Positions 7,785 through 17,196 of a DNA stretch of 48,420 bases are shown piece after piece. Origin of the DNA: an uncultured Chthonomonas sp. (GTDB lineage: Bacteria > Armatimonadota > Chthonomonadetes > Chthonomonadales > CAJBBX01); contig CAJBBX010000052.1 in assembly GCA_903951425.1 (NCBI GenBank), forward strand, positions 1 to 48,420, read 5' to 3'. The notes beneath the pieces were generated by a model. That model was not told the DNA's origin. It saw only the letters and a program-made list of their open reading frames with translations, and searched no databases. Numbering within the stretch: position 1 is the stretch's first letter; every line of letters starts with the position of its first letter. The translations under genes and the position numbers were made by a program.

Positions 7785-8831
7785 ATGACCGAGCGCGAGA
7801 ACTGGCTTCGGACCGTGGAGTTCCGCTGCCCGGATTGGATCCCCTGCAGCGTCTCGCTGGCGCCGCTGGCCTGGCATACGCACCGCGAGCGGCTCGAGGA
7901 TGTGGTCCTCTCGCATCCGCGCCTCTTCCCCGGCTTCGGGGCCGGATCGGTGGACTTCGACGCCTTCGGCAACGTCTACCGCCAGGGCGAGCGCTTCACG
8001 GACAACTGGCAGTGCGTCTGGCACAACGAGGTGGGCGGGCTCGAGGGGCAGGTCGTCGAGCACCCCCTGGCCGACTGGGACGCGCTGGAGGGCTACAGCC
8101 CGCCCGATCCCATCACCCAGAGCGAGCGGGGAGGCCGCGACTGGCCCGCCGCCCGCATGCACATGCAGGCCGCCAAGGACGCCGGCCATCTGGTCATGGG
8201 TGACGGCGAGCGGCTCTTCGACCGCCTCTACTTCCTCCGCGGTTTCGACAACCTGATGATGGATATCGCCACGGACGACCCGCGCCTCACGCGCCTCGTC
8301 GACATGCTGCTGGACTACGAGACGCGCCTCATCACGCCCGCGCTGGAGTTCGGCGTCGACGCGGTGGCCTTCCACACGGATATCGGCGCCCAGCGCTCGC
8401 TGATGATCAGCCCCGAGAAGTTCCGCAAGCACATCAAGCCCCTCTTCGCCCAGCTCTTCGGCCTCTGCCGCGCCGCCGGCGCCCATGTCTACCTCTCCTC
8501 CGACGGCTGCGTGCTGCCCATCGTGGACGACCTGATCGAGTGCGGCGTCTCGGTACACGACCCGCAGTACCGCGCCAACGGGCTCGACGGCATCGAGCGG
8601 GCCTACAAGGGCAAGCTCTGCGCCAATGTCGACCTGGACCGCCAGATGTTCGCCTTCTGCACTCCGCAGGAGATCACGGAGCACGTGCGCGGCGTGGTGA
8701 GCCGTATGTACCTGCCCGATGGCGGCCTCATGGTCTCCGGCTCCGTCTGGGACGCCAACACGCCGTTGGAGAACATCGAGGCCCTCTGCTCGGCCATCGA
8801 AGAGTGCTGCCTGGGATGCCGCGAATGGTAG
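7785..8831 (+). CDS. Uroporphyrinogen decarboxylase (URO-D) family protein
   Basis: This 348-residue protein starts at an ATG with AGGAG seven bases upstream. It has the TIM-barrel layout of URO-D and corrinoid methyltransferase MtaA/CmuA relatives: HTDIGAQRSLMISPEKFRKH, then GAHVYLSSDGC and a C-terminal TPQEITEHVRG...ENIEALCSAIEE region. The N-terminal WIPCSVSLAPLAWH region lacks the arginine-rich RQAGR substrate motif of true HemE enzymes. It is therefore unlikely to make coproporphyrinogen and more likely belongs to the large uncharacterised URO-D-like group, possibly methyl transfer. It overlaps the next gene and is probably co-transcribed with it. Confidence 0.85.
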   Translation: MTERENWLRTVEFRCPDWIPCSVSLAPLAWHTHRERLEDVVLSHPRLFPGFGAGSVDFDAFGNVYRQGERFTDNWQCVWHNEVGGLEGQVVEHPLADWDALEGYSPPDPITQSERGGRDWPAARMHMQAAKDAGHLVMGDGERLFDRLYFLRGFDNLMMDIATDDPRLTRLVDMLLDYETRLITPALEFGVDAVAFHTDIGAQRSLMISPEKFRKHIKPLFAQLFGLCRAAGAHVYLSSDGCVLPIVDDLIECGVSVHDPQYRANGLDGIERAYKGKLCANVDLDRQMFAFCTPQEITEHVRGVVSRMYLPDGGLMVSGSVWDANTPLENIEALCSAIEECCLGCREW

Positions 8832-9583
8832 CGGCGGCCCTCGCCCTTGCCGCCGCCGCCCTCTGCTGCCTGGCCGCGCCGGAGCGGCCTCGCGCCCTGA
8901 TCGTGGCCGACGAGATCCCCGCCATGCGCGTCGTAGCGGAACTGCTGGGTCGCGAGGCCGGCATGGACGCCCAGGTTGCGACGCAGGCCGAGACGCCGGA
9001 TGAACTGGCCGCCTACGCCTGCGTCCTGGTCTATATCCACGGGAAGCTGGACCACCGCGCCGAGGAGGCCTGCATTCGCTTTGCCGAGGGCGGCGGCAAG
9101 CTCATCGTCCTGCACCACAGCATTAGTTCCGCCAAGCGGGCCGGCGCCAACCCCCATTGGTTCCGGTTCCTGGGCGTGGAGGCGCCGTCGCTGCCCTTCG
9201 AGCAGGGCGGCTACCGATGGATCGAGGGCGTGACCATGGACATCCGCGCCCTCGCCCCGAAGCACCCGATCCTGCGCGGCGTGAAGTGGGAGCAGGCCGA
9301 CGGCGGGCAGGGCTTCCGGCTGGAGGAGACCGAGGTCTACCTGAACCACGTGCTGGGCCAGGGGCGCCTGCCTTCCGGCGATCCGTGCGGCAAGCGGACG
9401 CTGCTCCTGGGCCTCACCTACACCGCCGCCGACGGTCGAACCTACCGCCAGGAGACCGCAGGCTGGACGATGCCCACGGGCAAGGGCCACGTGGTCTACC
9501 TGATGCCGGGCCACACCGACCGCGAGTTCCGCCACCCCGCCTACGCCCGCATCCTGGCCAACGCCGCCCGCTGGAGGCCGTAG
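8816..9583 (+). CDS. ThuA-like domain protein
   Basis: The product is 255 residues with a short hydrophobic N-terminus (MVAAALALAAAALCCLAA) that could be a signal peptide. The ThuA-like (trehalose-utilisation, glutamine-amidotransferase-like) fold is indicated by ALIVADEIP near the start, YACVLVYIHGKLD, a GGGKLIVLHHSIS turn, KHPILRGVKW, and TMPTGKGHVVYLMPGHTDRE before the end. Members occur in carbohydrate-degradation clusters of planctomycete- and armatimonad-type bacteria; their reaction is not established. The start overlaps the URO-D gene stop; ATG 8825 is an equally possible start. No clear ribosome-binding site is present, so coupling to the upstream gene is likely. Confidence 0.8.
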   Translation: MPRMVAAALALAAAALCCLAAPERPRALIVADEIPAMRVVAELLGREAGMDAQVATQAETPDELAAYACVLVYIHGKLDHRAEEACIRFAEGGGKLIVLHHSISSAKRAGANPHWFRFLGVEAPSLPFEQGGYRWIEGVTMDIRALAPKHPILRGVKWEQADGGQGFRLEETEVYLNHVLGQGRLPSGDPCGKRTLLLGLTYTAADGRTYRQETAGWTMPTGKGHVVYLMPGHTDREFRHPAYARILANAARWRP

Positions 9584-9656
9584 GACGGAAGGTCATAGGG
9601 ACGGCCCCGCGGCACCTTCGCAGGAGCCCGGCCGTCCGCCGTCGAACCTACGCCCC

Positions 9657-9719
9657 ATGACCGCATCCCAGTTCATCGCCAAGTGGCGCCGCACAACCCT
9701 CTCGGAGCGATCGGCCGCG
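9657..9719 (+). pseudogene. 5' remnant of a type IIG-like N-6 DNA methylase gene
   Basis: The 21 codons from ATG 9657 read MTASQFIAKWRRTTLSERSA followed by Ala. This matches the characteristic N-terminus of large single-chain DNA methylases (M-T-x-x-x-F-I-x-K-W-x...L-x-E-R-S-A, normally followed by a QxHFxDLC segment). After codon 21 the similarity stops and the frame becomes non-protein-like. The matching C-terminal tail of the same kind of protein lies at 13560-13667. I infer that a cassette replaced the middle of that gene. The assignment rests on remembered family consensus, not on an alignment. Confidence 0.5.
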
Positions 9720-9830
9720 CCGTTCCCTAGGAGTGCGGCCGGGCATGGAGTGCCTGCCCGGTACGCTAGGCGGGAGGGCCCCGTGGGTCAGTGGGGTGAA
9801 CCACGCCAAGCCGGTGTGCGCCGGAGGGCC

Positions 9831-9876
9831 TTGACAACGACTGCCCCTCCGTGGTAACACTGTTACCACGGAGGGG
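9831..9876 (+). promoter_or_regulatory. Promoter with perfect 16-bp-arm palindromic operator ahead of the XRE gene
   Basis: A consensus -35 box TTGACA is at 9831-9836. The arms CCCCTCCGTGGTAACA (9844-9859) and TGTTACCACGGAGGGG (9861-9876) form an exact palindrome around a single C at 9860. A weak -10 (TAACAC, 9855-9860) falls inside the palindrome, so a bound repressor would block the polymerase. It ends 10 bases before the XRE start codon. The natural reading is an autoregulatory operator for the XRE/ImmA pair. The same sequence could also fold as an RNA hairpin if transcription began upstream. Confidence 0.65.
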
Positions 9877-9886
9877 AGAACAAGCC

Positions 9887-10285
9887 ATGGGGGAGGCATT
9901 CGGGCAGTATATCAGGGCGTTACGGCTGGAGCGCGGCATCGGGCTTCGCGAGTTCTGCTTGCGGATCGCCGTCGATCCATCCAATTACAGTAAGCTGGAG
10001 CGGGGCCTGCTCAGTCCGCCCGACGAGGGGCGGCTGGCCGCTCTCGAGTTGGCGCTTGACGTGGAACCAGGGTCAGAGCAGTCGCGGGAGCTCCGACGTC
10101 TCGCGGCGCTGGGGTGCGGTAGCATCCCGCCGGCAGTCCTCTCGGACCAGCAACTGGCCGGCAAGCTGCCGCTCTTCTTCCGCACGTTGGAGGGGGGCCC
10201 GGTGGACGAGGACAAACTCGAAGAGGTGATCGCAATGATCCGCCAAGCATGGACACATGATGCCCAAGGTTCAGTTCAGGTCTAA
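9887..10285 (+). CDS. XRE-family transcriptional regulator
   Basis: This 132-residue protein has an N-terminal lambda-repressor-like HTH (about 6-60: FGQYIRALRLERGIGLREFC, then DPSNYSKLERG). Its C-terminal region is less conserved, with an acidic helix at VDEDKLEEVIAMIRQAW. GGGGAG precedes the ATG by about eight bases. The gene sits directly behind a perfect palindrome and overlaps the ImmA/IrrE-type protease gene by 29 bases. This is the standard pairing in which the protease inactivates the repressor under stress, inducing a mobile-element or defence locus. Here the downstream target is probably the DNA methyltransferase-nuclease. Confidence 0.88.
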   Translation: MGEAFGQYIRALRLERGIGLREFCLRIAVDPSNYSKLERGLLSPPDEGRLAALELALDVEPGSEQSRELRRLAALGCGSIPPAVLSDQQLAGKLPLFFRTLEGGPVDEDKLEEVIAMIRQAWTHDAQGSVQV

Positions 10286-10868
10286 GGAGGAACTGCGGGA
10301 GGCGGCCGACAGACTCCTCGCTGACCTGGGCGGTGCACAGGGGCCGCCTGTTCCCATTGAGCTCCTGGTCGAGCAGACCTTCGGCCTTGACATCGTCCCA
10401 ATCCCAGGTTACCTGGACCATGCACGGGTAGACGGAGCCCTGTCTGCGGACCTTACGAGCATCACGGTAGACCAGTGGGTCATGGAGCGGAGGCAGAATC
10501 GGTACCGCTTTACGCTGGCACACGAGCTCGGGCATCTGGTGCTGCACCGCCCCCTCATCGAGTCCCTGGCGATGAGCGGCACCGGCACATGGAAGGGAGC
10601 GGTTCAGTCGTGGGATGCCAAGCAGTACAGCTTCCTGGAGCGACAGGCCAATGCGTTCGCCGGCTACCTGCTCGTCCCTGGCGCCGCGCTGCGGAGGCAC
10701 TACACGAGCGCCGCCGAGCGCGCTCGGGCCCATGGCATCGCTCTCGAAGAGCTGGGCGACTACGCAGCCAACCAGGTGGCGGGCTTCATCGCTGATGCGT
10801 TCCAGGTGTCCGCTAAAGTCATCACGATACGCCTTAGTGAGGAGGGCGTGCTGCCAAGCGATCGATGA
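10257..10868 (+). CDS. ImmA/IrrE-family metallo-endopeptidase
   Basis: This 203-residue protein is a zinc-metallopeptidase of the ImmA/IrrE family. The zinc/catalytic motif is H89-E90-L-G-H93 (RFTLAHELGHLVLH), and the third ligand is probably E128 in FLERQANAFAGYLLVP, a family hallmark. Family members cleave or otherwise inactivate partner XRE repressors. The start overlaps the XRE gene; the tandem ATGATG at 10257 gives two adjacent starts. The C-terminal half is helical and probably binds the partner. Together with the upstream gene it forms a control module. Confidence 0.9.
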   Translation: MMPKVQFRSKEELREAADRLLADLGGAQGPPVPIELLVEQTFGLDIVPIPGYLDHARVDGALSADLTSITVDQWVMERRQNRYRFTLAHELGHLVLHRPLIESLAMSGTGTWKGAVQSWDAKQYSFLERQANAFAGYLLVPGAALRRHYTSAAERARAHGIALEELGDYAANQVAGFIADAFQVSAKVITIRLSEEGVLPSDR

Positions 10869-10904
10869 CCGGGTGCAGCCAGCGCCGTTAGCTTCTGCCG
10901 AGAA

Positions 10905-10954
10905 GGGGCGGGATGGCCCACTGCGCCAGCGATGCGTCGATGCCCTCCCGCCCC
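10905..10954 (+). terminator. Possible hairpin after the ImmA/IrrE gene
   Basis: GGGGCGGGATGGC (10905-10917) pairs with GCCCTCCCGCCCC (10942-10954), 12 of 13 bases, with a 24-base loop. No U-run follows. It lies between the protease stop (10868) and the methyltransferase start (10979), so it could partly separate their transcription. Confidence 0.35.
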
Positions 10955-10978
10955 TCCCGCCCCTGAACCCACCACACC

Positions 10979-11608
10979 ATGCCCTCAAACACCCTCTACT
11001 ACGGCGATAACCTCGACGTCCTCCGGAAGCACATGCCCGACGCCTCCGTCGATCTCGTCTACCTCGACCCGCCCTTCAACTCGCAGCGCAACTACAACGT
11101 GCTCTTCAAGGAGCAGTCCGGTCTCCAGAGCCCCGCCCAGATCAAGGCCTTCACCGATACATGGGAGTGGTCCGAAGAGGCCTACCAGACCTTCCTGCAC
11201 GAGTGCCGCAACCCACGCCTCCTCAACCTAGTCCAGGGCTTCACCCAGATGCTCGGCCGCAACGCCGTCACCGCCTACATCGCCATGATGGCCCCGCGCC
11301 TCGCCGAGCTACACCGCGTCCTCAAACCCACCGGCAGCCTCTACCTCCACTGCGACCCCACCGCCAGCCACTACCTCAAGCTCGTTCTGGACGCCGTGTT
11401 CGAACCGACGAACTTCAGGAATGAGATCATCTGGCGACGCACAAACTCGCACAATAAGACCACTCGACAGTATGGACCAATTCATGATACCTTGTTGTTT
11501 TATAGTAAATCTGATATGTTTACATTTCATCCAGGATGTCGCCCGTATAGTCGTGCATATATTGAAGACAGGTTAAACATGTCGATGGCAGAGGTAAGCA
11601 TCAGCTGA
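10979..11608 (+). CDS. DNA methyltransferase, N-terminal half (gene broken by a frameshift)
   Basis: These 209 residues are the first part of a beta-class site-specific DNA methyltransferase (N6-adenine or N4-cytosine). Catalytic motif IV is D30-P-P-F (LVYLDPPFNSQRNYNVLF), followed by GSLYLHCDPTASHYLK and a target-recognition start (NEIIWRRTNSHNKTT). The reading frame is lost near 11573, at GACAGGTTAAACATGTCGAT. One missing base, probably a T in an original TTTAAA, would restore a DRFKHVD reading into the downstream frame. The last residues (NMSMAEVSIS) are therefore out of frame. Base use turns AT-rich from about 11430, unlike the GC-rich codons before it. The C-terminal half is at 11758-12693. 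Confidence 0.85.
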   Translation: MPSNTLYYGDNLDVLRKHMPDASVDLVYLDPPFNSQRNYNVLFKEQSGLQSPAQIKAFTDTWEWSEEAYQTFLHECRNPRLLNLVQGFTQMLGRNAVTAYIAMMAPRLAELHRVLKPTGSLYLHCDPTASHYLKLVLDAVFEPTNFRNEIIWRRTNSHNKTTRQYGPIHDTLLFYSKSDMFTFHPGCRPYSRAYIEDRLNMSMAEVSIS

Positions 11609-11757
11609 ACTACCTGACGGGCCCCGGCGTAAGGCATGGCGAGAGTGGTGCTTCCTGGCGTGGCTTTGACCCCACAGCCGCAGGGCGTCACTGGGCGATC
11701 CCGCTGTCCCTACGGGGCTTCCTGCCCGATCGAGGCGAGGGGCTGGGTAGCCACCAA

Positions 11758-12693
11758 ATGCTGGATATACTCCTGGCGCATGATCTCATCGTGTTCCCTG
11801 CCAAGCCTGGAGGCCAACCCATGTACCGGCAGTACATCGGACCAGGCACGCCATACCAGGACATTTGGGCGTACCAGCCCAATACACATGGCGTTCTCCA
11901 CCAGTCCCAGGAGTGCATCGACGAGGACGTTAAGTACCTTGAGGGCGAGGAGGAGAAACTCGGGTTTGACACGCAAAAGCCGCTTGGCTTGCTCCGCCGG
12001 ATTCTGGTTACATCCAGCGATCCAGAAGACACTGTGCTCGACCCATTCTGCGGCTGCGGCACAACAGTTCTGGCCGCCGCAGAGCTTAGCCGCCGGTGGA
12101 TCGGCATTGACGTAGCCCACCTTGCCGTGGCTCTCATCAAAGGACGTCTCGCCGACTCCTTCGCGCTCCAGGCCAAGTCCGACTACCGAGTCATCGGCGA
12201 GCCCACCACCGACGCTGAGGCCCGCGCCCTCGCCAACCAGGACCGCGACGAGTTCCAGAAATGGGCCGTCGGCCTCGTCCCCCGCGCCATGCTCTACCAG
12301 CAGAAGAAGGGCGCCGACGGAGGCGTCGACGGCCTCCTCTACTTCCGCGACGACGCCGCCAACCCCAAGAAGGCCGTCATCCAGGTCAAGTCCGGCCACC
12401 CCAGCCTCGGCCACGCCCGCGACTTCGCCCACGTCATAGCCCGCGAGAAGGCCACACTGGGCCTCTACATCACCCTCGACCCGCCCACAACCCCCATGCT
12501 CCGCGAAGCCGACACCCTGGGCTTCTACACCACGCCCCTCGGAGGCCACCGCCTCCCGCGCTTCCAGTTCCGCACAGCCGAGCAGCTCCTCGCCAACCAG
12601 CCCTTCCAGATCCCATCGTCGGCCCTCCTCCTAGGAGTAGCCACCGCCCCCAAACTAACCACCGACCCGGGCCAACAAACCCTGGACCTGTGA
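11758..12693 (+). CDS. DNA methyltransferase C-terminal half fused to a PD-(D/E)XK-like nuclease domain
   Basis: The frame is open from 11578; the first ATG is 11758, giving 311 residues. Before that ATG the same frame reads HVDGRGKHQLNYLTGPGVRH and on, the normal continuation of the gene beginning at 10979. SAM-binding motif I (D95PFCGCGT) follows TQKPLGLLRRIL, giving the motif IV then I order of beta-class enzymes. The last third carries KKGADGGVDG (D187, D191) and IQVK (Q209-V-K211), resembling an Mrr-like restriction nuclease. An intact version would be a single-chain restriction-modification enzyme. As it stands the enzyme is probably inactive unless the frameshift is bypassed. Confidence 0.85.
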   Translation: MLDILLAHDLIVFPAKPGGQPMYRQYIGPGTPYQDIWAYQPNTHGVLHQSQECIDEDVKYLEGEEEKLGFDTQKPLGLLRRILVTSSDPEDTVLDPFCGCGTTVLAAAELSRRWIGIDVAHLAVALIKGRLADSFALQAKSDYRVIGEPTTDAEARALANQDRDEFQKWAVGLVPRAMLYQQKKGADGGVDGLLYFRDDAANPKKAVIQVKSGHPSLGHARDFAHVIAREKATLGLYITLDPPTTPMLREADTLGFYTTPLGGHRLPRFQFRTAEQLLANQPFQIPSSALLLGVATAPKLTTDPGQQTLDL

Positions 12694-12694
12694 G

Positions 12695-12716
12695 GGGCGG
12701 CCCCCCGTGGCCGCCC
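12695..12716 (+). terminator. Hairpin terminator after the methyltransferase-nuclease gene
   Basis: GGGCGGCC (12695-12702) and GGCCGCCC (12709-12716) pair perfectly around the loop CCCCGT, starting two bases after the stop codon. There is no U-run, as is common in high-GC genomes. Confidence 0.5.
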
Positions 12717-12770
12717 GTGCGTAATAGACGCGTTCCGGCGCATTGCCATCGGCTTCAGTGCCTGCCTCGC

Positions 12771-13559
12771 ATGAACCAGGAGATTGCCCAGCCCATGCGA
12801 TTCGCGATTCCGCCCGAGCAGTCCTTGCTTAGCGGCCTGCCTAACACGTTCGCTGCGGCCGGCGGCGGCACTCTCGCCGACTGGGCCGCGCTCGCCTTCG
12901 CCACGCGCTTCGCCACCGAGCACGAGCGGCGCAGCCGACCCGATCGCCTGCCCGACGACCTGGACACCATCGCGCTGGCCTGCCTCTTGCTCGTGGCAGA
13001 CTATGGGTGCCGCCCCGATAGGCGCCTTATCGCGCGGCTATACCGCTGCGTCGCAAGCATCGGCACTGAGCCCCGATCTCGCTACCTCGATGCGCTTCCC
13101 TTCGATCTGTGCCTCTGGCTGCTCGGCGAGCCCTCGAATGCCCGCGACCGCCTGCTCGACGCCATCTTCGCAGAGGGATCGGCGGTGCGCTCCCTGACGC
13201 TCGACGTCGCATGGCTCTGCCGTGCCCACCTCAGCGCCAAGCGCGTCGGGAGCCTTCGCGCCGTGGGCGGCCTTCTGCATTCGGTCTCGCATGGGCACCT
13301 CCACACGGACCGGTCGTTCGTCCTGTGCCGCCACATGTTCCCCTCAGCCGCCGACTTCTGGTCCGCCGTCGCGCTACTCGAGGGTCCGCCCATGTCCCAG
13401 CAGTACCAGAACCAGATGGCGGAGGTACGCCAGAACCCTGCGCTGTTGGAGTTCAACTCCAGCTTCGCCGAGATCGAACTGCGCGTGTGCAGAGAGATCA
13501 CCGGTCTACTGCTCACGACAACGACCTTCGACTACCCGCCCGTCCAGACCGCAACCTGA
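12771..13559 (+). CDS. Hypothetical protein in the restriction-modification cassette
   Basis: This 262-residue protein belongs to no family I recognise. It is mostly alpha-helical and leucine/alanine-rich, with repeated helix-like segments (LADWAALAFATRF, IALACLLLVADYG, RYLDALPFDLCLWLLG) and several cysteines. There is no signal peptide or clear membrane helix. The start is uncertain: ATG 12771 has no ribosome-binding site, and ATG 12795 has AGGAG rather far upstream. It lies between the methyltransferase-nuclease and the 3' remnant of another methylase, so it belongs to the inserted cassette and may be an accessory or immunity factor, which is inference. Confidence 0.6.
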   Translation: MNQEIAQPMRFAIPPEQSLLSGLPNTFAAAGGGTLADWAALAFATRFATEHERRSRPDRLPDDLDTIALACLLLVADYGCRPDRRLIARLYRCVASIGTEPRSRYLDALPFDLCLWLLGEPSNARDRLLDAIFAEGSAVRSLTLDVAWLCRAHLSAKRVGSLRAVGGLLHSVSHGHLHTDRSFVLCRHMFPSAADFWSAVALLEGPPMSQQYQNQMAEVRQNPALLEFNSSFAEIELRVCREITGLLLTTTTFDYPPVQTAT

Positions 13560-13667
13560 TCCAACCCAGCCACCGCCTACAGCCAGCCCGCCGACCTGAC
13601 GGACGACGAGGTCATCTCGCGGCTGTTGGCCCTGAACCTGGCACGGGCCGCCGCCGAAGGCGGGTGA
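13560..13667 (+). pseudogene. 3' remnant of a type IIG-like N-6 DNA methylase gene
   Basis: Directly after the preceding stop, and by chance in the same frame, the sequence reads AYSQPADLTDDEV, then ISRLLALNLARAAAEGG and a TGA at 13665. The D-L-T/S-D-E-E-I-L-x-R-L-L-A-L-N-L-E-R-A ending is the recurring C-terminal tail of large single-chain DNA methylases. No start codon or upstream domain is present. With the matching N-terminal remnant at 9657-9719, this suggests one gene whose middle has been replaced. Confidence 0.5.
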
Positions 13668-14061
13668 TGGGGTGCGGGGGAGCGGGTGAAACGGCGCTTG
13701 GTGGGTCGGGCGCCGATCTGTGCCACACTTCCCGTGGTCGCTCCGCGAGGGGTTCTGCACAGACCCTTGGCGTCCTTGGCTGCCTGTGGCGCAAGGTGCG
13801 GCGTTGGCCGAGCGACCATCCTTGTCCGGGGTTTGCGGGGCACGCATGGGAACGCCGCGCCATCCGCATGCAAGTGGTGGCGCGGCGTCAGCAGCACGAC
13901 CGGGACGAACCCGAGTGGTCCTCAGGCAGGAGGGAGCCTTCGGACACTAACCGAAGGTCCGCTGGTAGTGTACCGACTGAAGTTTCAGGAGGTCCGCATG
14001 GTTCGCCCGGATAGAGCTACCGCCATGGCCGTCCGGCTCCCTCAGCCACGCCCGCGGCCGG
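13668..14061 (+). other. Intergenic stretch without a convincing gene
   Basis: I see no protein-like frame here. A small hairpin is present (CCTTCGG 13937-13943, CCGAAGG 13951-13957). A near-perfect ribosome-binding site AGGAGG (13987-13992) stands five bases before ATG 13998. However, the frame from that ATG is Pro/Arg-rich and not protein-like, while the frame used at 14062 has a stop just upstream. This fits a decayed or frameshifted 5' end of the following gene. Confidence 0.4.
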
Positions 14062-14394
14062 ATGCTGGGCGCTGTGGTCCTTCGCCACCTGATGGTGATC
14101 GCCGACCGGGAGGCCCTGCTCCGAACGTCCACCCCGATTTTCTGCTTCGGCCCTGCCGACCTGCCCTGCGAGCAGACCTATGAGGAGGTCCTCGCCGACG
14201 TCTTCGAGGCCATGGCGCACCCGATGTGGGCCACCTACATCGACATCGTTGCGGACCGGTTCGATGGCAGCCTGGATGTCTGCGCGCTCCGGCTGCAGAT
14301 GCCCGTGGAGGAGGTCCTATCCGCGGTTGAGCTCCAGATCATCGATGACCTGTGGGCGCCGCCTGTCGTCCGGTGGCCGATAGGCAGCGCTTGA
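14062..14394 (+). CDS. Short hypothetical protein, possibly a decayed gene
   Basis: The 110-residue product looks like real protein (TYEEVLADVFEAMAHPMWAT, VDRF-like DIVADRFDGSLDVCALRL, then VEEVLSAVELQIIDDLW). The ATG at 14062 has no ribosome-binding site, and protein-like sequence continues upstream of it without a start codon to about 14030. The good AGGAGG-ATG at 13998 is in another frame. I recognise no family. Either a frameshift separates the true start from the body, or the gene is a remnant at the edge of the cassette region. Confidence 0.4.
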   Translation: MLGAVVLRHLMVIADREALLRTSTPIFCFGPADLPCEQTYEEVLADVFEAMAHPMWATYIDIVADRFDGSLDVCALRLQMPVEEVLSAVELQIIDDLWAPPVVRWPIGSA

Positions 14395-14400
14395 GGCGCC

Positions 14401-14480
14401 TGAGGAGGAGAAGGGGGTGAGGGGGTGGGCGGCGCGTGAAGGGGTGAAGGGGTGAGGAGGTGAGGGGGTGAGGGTGTGAG
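14401..14480. repeat. G-rich degenerate tandem repeat (GGGGTGA-type units)
   Basis: About ten degenerate 7-9-base units based on GGGGTGA/GGAGGTGA run through this stretch, followed by a C-rich run at 14486-14516. On the minus strand it lies 3' of the hybrid kinase gene and reads as TCACCCC repeats. A similar CACCTCC repeat occurs at 33918-33966. G-runs of this density could form a G-quadruplex. Confidence 0.6.
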
Positions 14481-14616
14481 AACCACGACCCCCACCCCCG
14501 CCCACCCCCACCCGCATCGCGGCAAGGGGAGGGAGCAGGGAGTGAGGGGTTGGCAGCGGCATCTTGGTGCGCGCCGTGGTTGGTTCGCTTATTCGCCCCT
14601 GCAGGTCCTCACTTCC

Positions 14617-17196
14617 TCATGCGGGAGGTGGTCCGTCGAGGGTCTCGCGGACCGTGCGCGCGAGGACCTCTCGCGTGAAGGGCTTGGGGAGGAACGGCAT
14701 GCCGTCCTCCAGCACGCCGTCCTTGGCGGCCACGTTGGATGTGTAGCCCGACATGGCGATGCACCGGATGCCCGGCCGCAACTCCCGCATCACCTGTGCC
14801 AACTCGATGCCGGTCATCTTCGGCATGGTGATATCGGTCAGGAGCAGGTCGATCGTGCCGTCGAACGCGGCCTGCTGCTCGATCGCCTCTTCGGGCCCCT
14901 CCGCCGACAGCACGCGGTACCCCAGCCGCTCCAGTAGCCGCTGGGTCGAGATGCGGATGGGCCGCTCGTCTTCGACCAGCAGGATCGTCTCGCCGCCGCC
15001 GGCCGGCTGGGCGCGCTCGGGTCCAGACGCTACGGGCTCGGGAGTCGGCGGCATATCGAGCGACCTCGGCAGGTGCATGCGGAAGGTGGCGCCTCGGCCC
15101 GGCTCGCTATCCACCTGCACAAACCCGCCGTTCTGCTGCATGATGCCGAAGACCGTTGCCAACCCCAGGCCGGTACCCTCGCCGAGGCCCTTGGTCGTGT
15201 GGAAAGGCTCGAAGATGTGCTGCAGAGTCTCGGCGTCTATGCCATTTCCGGTGTCGCTGACTGTGAGTCGCACGAAGTCGCCGCCATCGAGCGAGACATT
15301 GGATGTCTCGACGGTCAGCGTGCCTGGCCCGGCCATGGCGTCGCGGGCGTTCACGGTCAGGTTGACCATGATCTGATCGATCTGCGACGCGTCGGCCTTC
15401 ACGTTCCAGAGCTCCTCGCCCGGACGCCAGGCGAGCTCGATATCCTCGCCGATGAGCCGGCGGAGCATTCTGAGCATGCCGTTGAGAACGCTGTTCAGAT
15501 CCAGCACGGTGGGCTTGATCGTCTGTTTGCTGGCGTAGGCCAGAAGCTGCCGGGTCAGGTCGGCTGACCTGTTGGACACGCCCTTGATCTCGTCGAGGTG
15601 CTCGACGGCCTGATGCCCGGCCGGCAGCACGTCTCGGGCCAGCTCCACATTGTTGAGCACGGCCATCAGCATGTTGTTGAAGTCGTGGGCGACGCCGCCT
15701 GCAAGCCGCCCGACGGCCTGCATCCTCTCTATGTGGGCCAACCGGGTCTGAAGCGCCTCGTGTTCGGCCGCGGTCCGCGTCTGGTCTGTGATGTCGGTGA
15801 CGATGCATGCGAACTGGCCGGGGGCCGGCCGAAAGGCCACCACATCAAAGTGCTTGCTCAGGCCTGCGGAGTAGTCGGTGAACCGGGTCGGCACGCCCGT
15901 TGCGACTACCTCGCCGTAAGCGGCGATCCAGGTCGGCTCGATGCCCGGCAGGGCCTCCGTGATCGTCCGGCCCACAATATCAGTGAAGCTGAGGCCGGTC
16001 ATCGCCTCGAATGCTGCATTGACCGCGAGGAACCGGTAGTCGATCGGGCGACCCCCTGCGTCGTAGACCATCTCATGCAGGGCGCAGCCGGTGGGCATGG
16101 CGCCGAAGAGCGCGTCATACTGCCGGCGGCTTGCCACCGCCGCGGCCCGCGACTCGGCCACCCGGGTCAGCATGGCGCTGATGCCGCCTGCCAGGGATGC
16201 AATCTCATCTGATCCGGTCACCGTCACTTGTCGGCTAGACTCGCCTTCAGGATCCACGCCGGCGACCTCGGCGCTGAGCCGCTCCAGGCGGGTGACCACG
16301 TACCGGCGGAGCACGATGGAGACCGTGACGCCGAAGACCAGGCATGCCACAACCAGCAGGACGCCGAAGAGGGCGGTGGCACGGACGCCCTGCCGGGAGA
16401 TCTCGCGCGGCATGGTCACCTGGACCAGGAGCGCCGGCGCTCCGCCGACGTCGTGCACGCGGCCGCATAGGCTCACGGTACCCTTGCCGTAGATTGCCGC
16501 GTCGTCCTGGGCTGCCTGGTTGAGCGCCGCAAGGGCTCGCCGGGCCTCTGGCGTGAGCGAGGGCGCATCGAGTGCATGGAGGGCGACGCCGACCTGCAGG
16601 TCATCGCTAATGCGCCGGACCTGCGCCGGGCCCAGGTAGCGACCCATCACGAGCACGCCCCGAGCCGGGCCGGCTCCAGCGCTGGTCAGAAGCGGCCGCG
16701 CCGCTACGGCCATGGCTCCGCCCCTGAGCATCACCACGCCCTTGGCTGCGGGGTCGCCTGCGACGGACCGGTGCAGCGGGCCGCCGGGGCGGACGAGATC
16801 GGCCAGGGCTGTCGGCGCGGGCCCGATTCTCGTATGTGCCCGACCGAACTCGCCTGACCAGACCGGACGGCCGGCGGTGTCGGTGATCAGCAGGGCATCC
16901 AGATCGAGGGCGTTCATGACAGATGGCGTGAGGTTCGCCTTCACGAAGGCGTCGCTACCGGTCTGGGCGAAGGCATAGGCGTCGTCAAAGTGGGACCAGT
17001 CGGCGACTGACCGGTCGACGTCATCCACTACATTGCTCAGCGCCACGCGAGCGCGAGCCAGATCGTGGCGGGCGTAGGCGGCTTCTGTGGCCTCGAAGGC
17101 GCGGCTCACGACGAGGCTGGCGGCGGCGTAGAGAAGGAGGACCAGGAGGCCGACGGCAAAGATCAGGATCGTCAGGACCCGTCTGCCGAGTCTCAT
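14617..17196 (-). CDS. CHASE4-PAS hybrid sensor histidine kinase
   Basis: This 859-residue membrane kinase has a first membrane helix at about 8-30. A periplasmic CHASE4-like sensor follows (about 45-265, with the hallmark ADWSHFDDAYAF), then a second helix (about 273-296) and a HAMP linker (to ~350). A PAS domain (about 355-475), HisKA with phospho-acceptor H504 (GGVAHDFNNMLMAVLNN) and HATPase_c (DTGNGI, GEGTGLGLATVFGI) come next. The C-terminal receiver domain (from ~736) has D788 (LLTDITMP) and K838 (FLPKPF). Phosphate can pass internally to the receiver or on to an unlinked regulator. No partner regulator gene is adjacent. Stop 14617 is followed by the G/C-rich repeats. Confidence 0.92.
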   Translation of the reverse strand: MRLGRRVLTILIFAVGLLVLLLYAAASLVVSRAFEATEAAYARHDLARARVALSNVVDDVDRSVADWSHFDDAYAFAQTGSDAFVKANLTPSVMNALDLDALLITDTAGRPVWSGEFGRAHTRIGPAPTALADLVRPGGPLHRSVAGDPAAKGVVMLRGGAMAVAARPLLTSAGAGPARGVLVMGRYLGPAQVRRISDDLQVGVALHALDAPSLTPEARRALAALNQAAQDDAAIYGKGTVSLCGRVHDVGGAPALLVQVTMPREISRQGVRATALFGVLLVVACLVFGVTVSIVLRRYVVTRLERLSAEVAGVDPEGESSRQVTVTGSDEIASLAGGISAMLTRVAESRAAAVASRRQYDALFGAMPTGCALHEMVYDAGGRPIDYRFLAVNAAFEAMTGLSFTDIVGRTITEALPGIEPTWIAAYGEVVATGVPTRFTDYSAGLSKHFDVVAFRPAPGQFACIVTDITDQTRTAAEHEALQTRLAHIERMQAVGRLAGGVAHDFNNMLMAVLNNVELARDVLPAGHQAVEHLDEIKGVSNRSADLTRQLLAYASKQTIKPTVLDLNSVLNGMLRMLRRLIGEDIELAWRPGEELWNVKADASQIDQIMVNLTVNARDAMAGPGTLTVETSNVSLDGGDFVRLTVSDTGNGIDAETLQHIFEPFHTTKGLGEGTGLGLATVFGIMQQNGGFVQVDSEPGRGATFRMHLPRSLDMPPTPEPVASGPERAQPAGGGETILLVEDERPIRISTQRLLERLGYRVLSAEGPEEAIEQQAAFDGTIDLLLTDITMPKMTGIELAQVMRELRPGIRCIAMSGYTSNVAAKDGVLEDGMPFLPKPFTREVLARTVRETLDGPPPA

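Follow-up and report, generated by a model that had tools for sequence, protein, structure and literature searches.

Terminal stubs of a lost type IIG restriction-methylase gene flank a composite set of defence modules in an uncultured Chthonomonas sp.

Single-chain type IIG/IIL enzymes of the MmeI family combine an N-terminal PD-(D/E)XK nuclease, a spacer, a gamma-class methylase, a target-recognition domain (TRD) and a C-terminal domain, and the catalytic residues of MmeI itself are D70, E80 and K82 (PMC4833311). Exchange of the recognition domain is a known process in DNA methylases, e.g., those of Helicobacter (PMC3077401, PMC3983042). Whole systems can also change at a fixed place: hotspots of restriction systems, and sites at which a different defence has taken over from restriction, are described for the Listeria ICR (PMC10059834) and for Acinetobacter (PMC12421847). 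Regulation of such operons may involve proteolysis, as with CapH/CapP, where single-stranded DNA activates a protease that cuts the repressor controlling the adjacent immune operon (PMC13373217, citing Lau et al. 2022). We analysed a contig of 48,420 nucleotides from an uncultured Chthonomonas sp. (the window), in which parts resembling several of these systems occur within about 4 kb (Table 1).

Table 1. Features of the defence site and its flanks in the window
Feature	Coordinates	Strand	Evidence or remark
ThuA-like gene, conserved left flank (3' part)	8711..9583	+	PF06283 E 3e-14
Head stub, N-terminal 21 codons, type IIG MmeI-like restriction-methylase	9657..9719	+	profile, shuffle, pairwise matches
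Perfect palindrome (33 bp), 16-nt arms, 1-nt centre, start region of XRE gene	9844..9876	.	likely operator
XRE helix-turn-helix repressor, CapH-like	9887..10285	+	PF13560/PF01381; PADLOC capH E 5e-4
ImmA/IrrE metalloprotease, CapP-like, overlaps XRE gene	10257..10868	+	PF06114 E 4e-13; PADLOC capP E 4.8e-18
Methylase-Mrr gene, N-terminal open frame, motif IV DPPF	10979..11608	+	PF01555; DNA identity to the G001 copy
Exchanged middle of methylase-Mrr gene (target-recognition region)	~11455..12038	+	protein vs DNA identity contrast
Frameshift between methylase-Mrr halves	~11566..11584	+	tblastn of intact homologues switches frame here
Methylase-Mrr gene, C-terminal open frame, motif DPFCGCGTT, Mrr_cat ~12244-12495	11758..12693	+	PF01555, PF04471
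Rare gene, 262 aa, function unassigned	12771..13559	+	relatives in G097, G136
Tail stub, C-terminal ~30 codons plus stop, type IIG MmeI-like restriction-methylase	13575..13667	+	profile, shuffle, pairwise matches
CHASE4 hybrid histidine kinase, right flank	14617..17196	-	congener relatives elsewhere

The original prediction read two peptides, encoded by the 21 codons of the head stub (MTASQFIAKWRRTTLSERSAA) and by positions 13560-13667 (SNPATAYSQPADLTDDEVISRLLALNLARAAAEGG* with its stop), as the ends of one large single-chain methylase, and the family to which they belong could be named. Used as a query, the tail stub retrieves open frames of 920-1000 aa from further genomes in the phylum and matches them best at their extreme C-terminus. 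These frames align as one family with a D-x9-ExK motif close to the N-terminus. In Pfam the intact homologues have the MmeI domains for nuclease, spacer, methylase and TRD; in PADLOC their best match, far above all else, is REase_MTase_IIG (E 5e-304 for L086), matches to BREX PglX being marginal. Because a Pfam search of the two stub peptides alone gave no match, a profile was built from nine intact homologues (model length 923) and run on the six frames of the window. It returned two matches only, on the same strand and in the correct order: the tail (25.3 bits, E 1.8e-7, model positions 887-915, window 13572-13658) and the head (9.0 bits, E 0.016, model positions 3-25, window 9651-9719). In 200 dinucleotide shuffles the top score was 4.0 bits at the head end and 2.7 bits at the tail end, so that neither real score was reached; one shuffle attained 9.6, at another part of the model. 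Moreover, both peptides align to single intact proteins, three of which (L164, L156 and L078) each share 12/21 residues with the head and 18/29 with the tail. The profile, the shuffles and these single-protein matches together establish that the pairing of head and tail is real.

The boundaries of the stubs are sharp. Head homology ends abruptly past ERSAA, and tail homology begins at ~13572-13575; the predicted tail thus holds from there onwards, its first codons (13560-13571) falling outside the homology, right behind the TGA (13557-13559) of the preceding gene. The profile search of the window found neither the D-x9-ExK nuclease nor the methylase motifs nor the TRD, which are absent together with model residues ~26-886. 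What is left, N- and C-terminal family sequence on one strand and in the right order, is accordingly a remnant only and not a type IIG member, and the simplest reading is that both pieces, the head having just 21 residues, come from one gene. Both stubs flank other defence genes. The prediction that the termini are scars of a lost defence gene stands: a type IIG gene has truly left its scar here, at a defence site of variable content. Two sets of further candidates were discarded. Weak tail matches in six genomes (G005, G042, G053, G061, G073 and G094; E 0.3-1) are mostly unrelated frames, that of G073 being a distant methylase, and MmeI_Mtase matches in the window's own genome were not counted as family members, the full-length profile giving a single weak match there (E 4.9e-5).

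The four genes between the stubs are those originally described, an XRE regulator, an ImmA/IrrE protease, a methylase-nuclease and a hypothetical gene, with two corrections: a frameshift divides the methylase-nuclease, and the four genes do not form one unit. The XRE repressor adjoins a protease of the HExxH ImmA/IrrE type, with HELGH in its sequence, and GTGGTA...TACCAC or GTTGTA...TACAAC elements lie upstream of several, though not all, homologous XRE-ImmA pairs. The window's palindrome, with its GTGGTA...TACCAC core, is thus likely the operator of the pair; a role as terminator was considered and dropped, since the core is found again, as an operator, in front of homologues. A scan for promoters found no sigma-70 consensus, and a hairpin between the ImmA gene and the methylase gene was not significant (z -1.6).

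The methylase-Mrr gene, a single-chain restriction gene by its make-up, has motif IV, TRD and motif I in the order of a beta-class N6/N4 methylase, followed by an Mrr_cat domain. In the window it is not a single uninterrupted frame, the C-terminal frame being open upstream to ~11566, whereas the copy in the congener G001 is uninterrupted; as assembled, the frameshift should leave the enzyme inactive. DNA identity to the G001 copy is ~97-100% over 10979-11398 and again from 12219 almost to the stop codon, and over ~11459-12038 it drops to unrelated levels. The recognition-region proteins of the two genes share 45 of 153 aligned residues (29%), and local GC is low (0.35-0.48) over 11459-11619, within this middle part. 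The target-recognition domain has thus been exchanged relative to the congener's copy, whose surroundings are prophage-like and include a recombinase and a YqaJ-type nuclease. The swap of a middle that the original prediction placed in the large methylase is therefore well shown for a different gene, the smaller methylase-Mrr gene inside the block.

The 262-aa gene has one relative directly behind an intact type IIG gene of another subfamily (in G097) and another within a defence island of G136. In the latter genome, a DUF2513 frame (L129 6371-6847, G136:C77) adjoins a PDC-S23-like gene and closes with what resembles the C-terminal end of a further type IIG subfamily (ELDFIINYDIKYRMG); it may be an orphan tail of a second kind.

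Comparison with the two available congeners, G001 and G002, places the site at a break in gene order. Synteny with both ends at 9579 (blastn), just before the stop codon of the ThuA-like gene, and past this point each congener has different DNA and genes. The search for an intact methylase at the site was thus unsuccessful: neither congener has a methylase there, nor any intact alternative allele between the same flanks. On the right, relatives of the histidine kinase lie on other contigs with other neighbours, for which reason no empty site can be demonstrated. The segment ~9580-14634 is specific to the window genome among the three compared. Searches found no tRNA, no tandem repeat inside the block and no direct repeat flanking the gap. 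The stretch from the tail stub to the histidine kinase contains an open frame of 110 aa (14062-14394) with no family match, beside degenerate tandem repeats of 8, 16 and 36 bases (14395-14480), and short pieces of ~14410-14540 match many places in the genus.

Loss of the type IIG middle is not peculiar to this genome. From 85,000 species genomes scanned, 80 tail-bearing loci were kept and classed by reading of their profile matches. Of these, 54 have the full length in a single frame, 7 are complete though split, 14 are cut by contig ends, two lack the middle (L155, L177) and three are orphan tails (L135, L147, L211). In G097 the head is joined directly to the tail. Given these deletions and orphan tails, middle loss in type IIG genes is recurrent, and mostly occurs without an insert. 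In a Planctomycetota draft genome (L211 56-2245) a different, split N6-methylase lies directly upstream of the orphan tail. A decayed head fragment from this family is present in the congener G002 itself (L107 6230-6450, G002:C89; model positions 22-80). It has a stop, and K in place of the catalytic E (WKYKGK), and lies ~0.4 kb before the type I-E genes cas3, cse1, cse2 and cas7. A Rhodospirillales draft genome (L206 2-1583) has two type IIG tails in tandem, ~1 kb apart.

How the block came to lie between the stubs can be read in several ways. We favour decay of the type IIG gene and filling of its gap by separately acquired defence modules, to which we give a probability of about 0.6. This account draws on the two matches in the window, the only ones and in order, on the type IIG identity of the intact homologues, on the plain internal deletions in G097, L155 and L177, on the orphan tails and on the decayed fragment in G002. 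It also draws on the make-up of the inserted DNA, which is a composite of at least three independently mobile modules rather than one cassette, because the XRE-ImmA pair and the methylase-Mrr gene occur elsewhere without each other, the latter in the congener's prophage: the pair is kept in at least ten other loci, never with this methylase-Mrr within 1.5 kb either side, and ~20 methylase-Mrr relatives lack the pair. Counting against it, the head stub is short and weak by itself (E 0.016), head and tail may stem from two neighbouring type IIG genes, and none of the relatives shows a step with the methylase intact at the site, so that any order of events would be conjectural. The original prediction had proposed instead that a ready-made restriction cassette recombined into the type IIG gene in one step and left the old ends as anchors. 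Both ends do survive in the right order and strand around a defence-related filling, a middle exchange with conserved ends did take place within the methylase-Mrr gene, and in L211 another N6-methylase precedes an orphan type IIG tail. Nevertheless, the four-gene block is not found elsewhere as a unit, neither congener has a methylase allele at the site, and homologous recombination inside the gene is not supported: the gap has no flanking repeat, and elsewhere in the family a plain internal deletion is enough to remove the middle. We regard one-step replacement as possible but unlikely, since none of the results calls for it and the modular composition argues against it.

An origin of head and tail in two different type IIG genes, with the modules lying between them in a decaying defence island, would agree with the tandem tails of L206 and with the different ranking of 35 homologues by head and by tail similarity (Spearman -0.15, on pieces too short for a strong rank test). 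We consider it improbable, since a single gene is the simplest source of two stubs that belong to one family, share an orientation and each break off just inside a terminus. A chimeric metagenome contig joining pieces of different loci could be suspected from the draft state of the genome (188 contigs, 3% estimated contamination) and from the frameshift in the methylase-Mrr gene. It is very improbable: the contig is without N, the GC of the modules is near that of the flanks except in the exchanged methylase-Mrr middle, and the near-identity of the ends of this gene to the congener's copy makes it at home in the genus. A broader proposal, that conserved type IIG ends serve as recurrent recombination anchors inside which unrelated defence genes are exchanged in place across many phyla, is one we doubt strongly; if it were true, such exchange would have been caught at different moments in the window, in G002, in L211 and in others.

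Under decay with separate insertions, a type IIG (MmeI-like) gene would formerly have stood downstream of the ThuA-like gene and lost ~860 of its ~920 codons, and the defence modules that now separate its first 21 codons from its last ~30 would have arrived in separate events, through deletion and insertion by end-joining or homology to passing DNA. With modules of separate arrival, the stubs would be passive scars. As to function, we infer from the families concerned that CapP would sense single-stranded DNA and cleave CapH, which would lift repression at the palindromic operator and induce the pair's own operon, perhaps also the restriction gene behind it; the latter would mark host DNA and cut unmarked DNA.

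All parts of the site are of known kinds, and none of the processes is new in kind. Its value lies in showing that short terminal stubs of large restriction genes are recognisable and usable for locating defence genes since lost and defence sites of variable content. The site also offers, from a little-studied phylum, a clear case of a recognition domain exchanged between a chromosomal gene and the prophage of a congener, and illustrates how defence modules of separate histories may be joined in one place.

Each element has a described counterpart. The stubs match the two termini of the MmeI family, whose D-x9-ExK the intact homologues keep, but only ~50 of ~920 residues remain in the window, with no catalytic motif among them (PMC4833311). 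The overlapping genes for an XRE repressor and an ImmA/IrrE protease, with a palindromic operator and a restriction gene behind, resemble CapH/CapP (PMC13373217), from which they differ in the weak capH match (E 5e-4) and in that the pair is also found without a neighbouring restriction gene. The methylase-Mrr gene has the conserved ends and exchanged recognition region seen between closely related methylase genes in the domain movement and TRD exchange of Helicobacter (PMC3077401, PMC3983042), here in an Armatimonadota methylase-Mrr fusion and between a chromosomal locus and a congener's prophage. Finally, where the Listeria ICR (PMC10059834) and the Acinetobacter site (PMC12421847) differ is that the window offers a pair of gene stubs in one genome without an allelic series; what it has in common with them is differing defence content at one chromosomal position.
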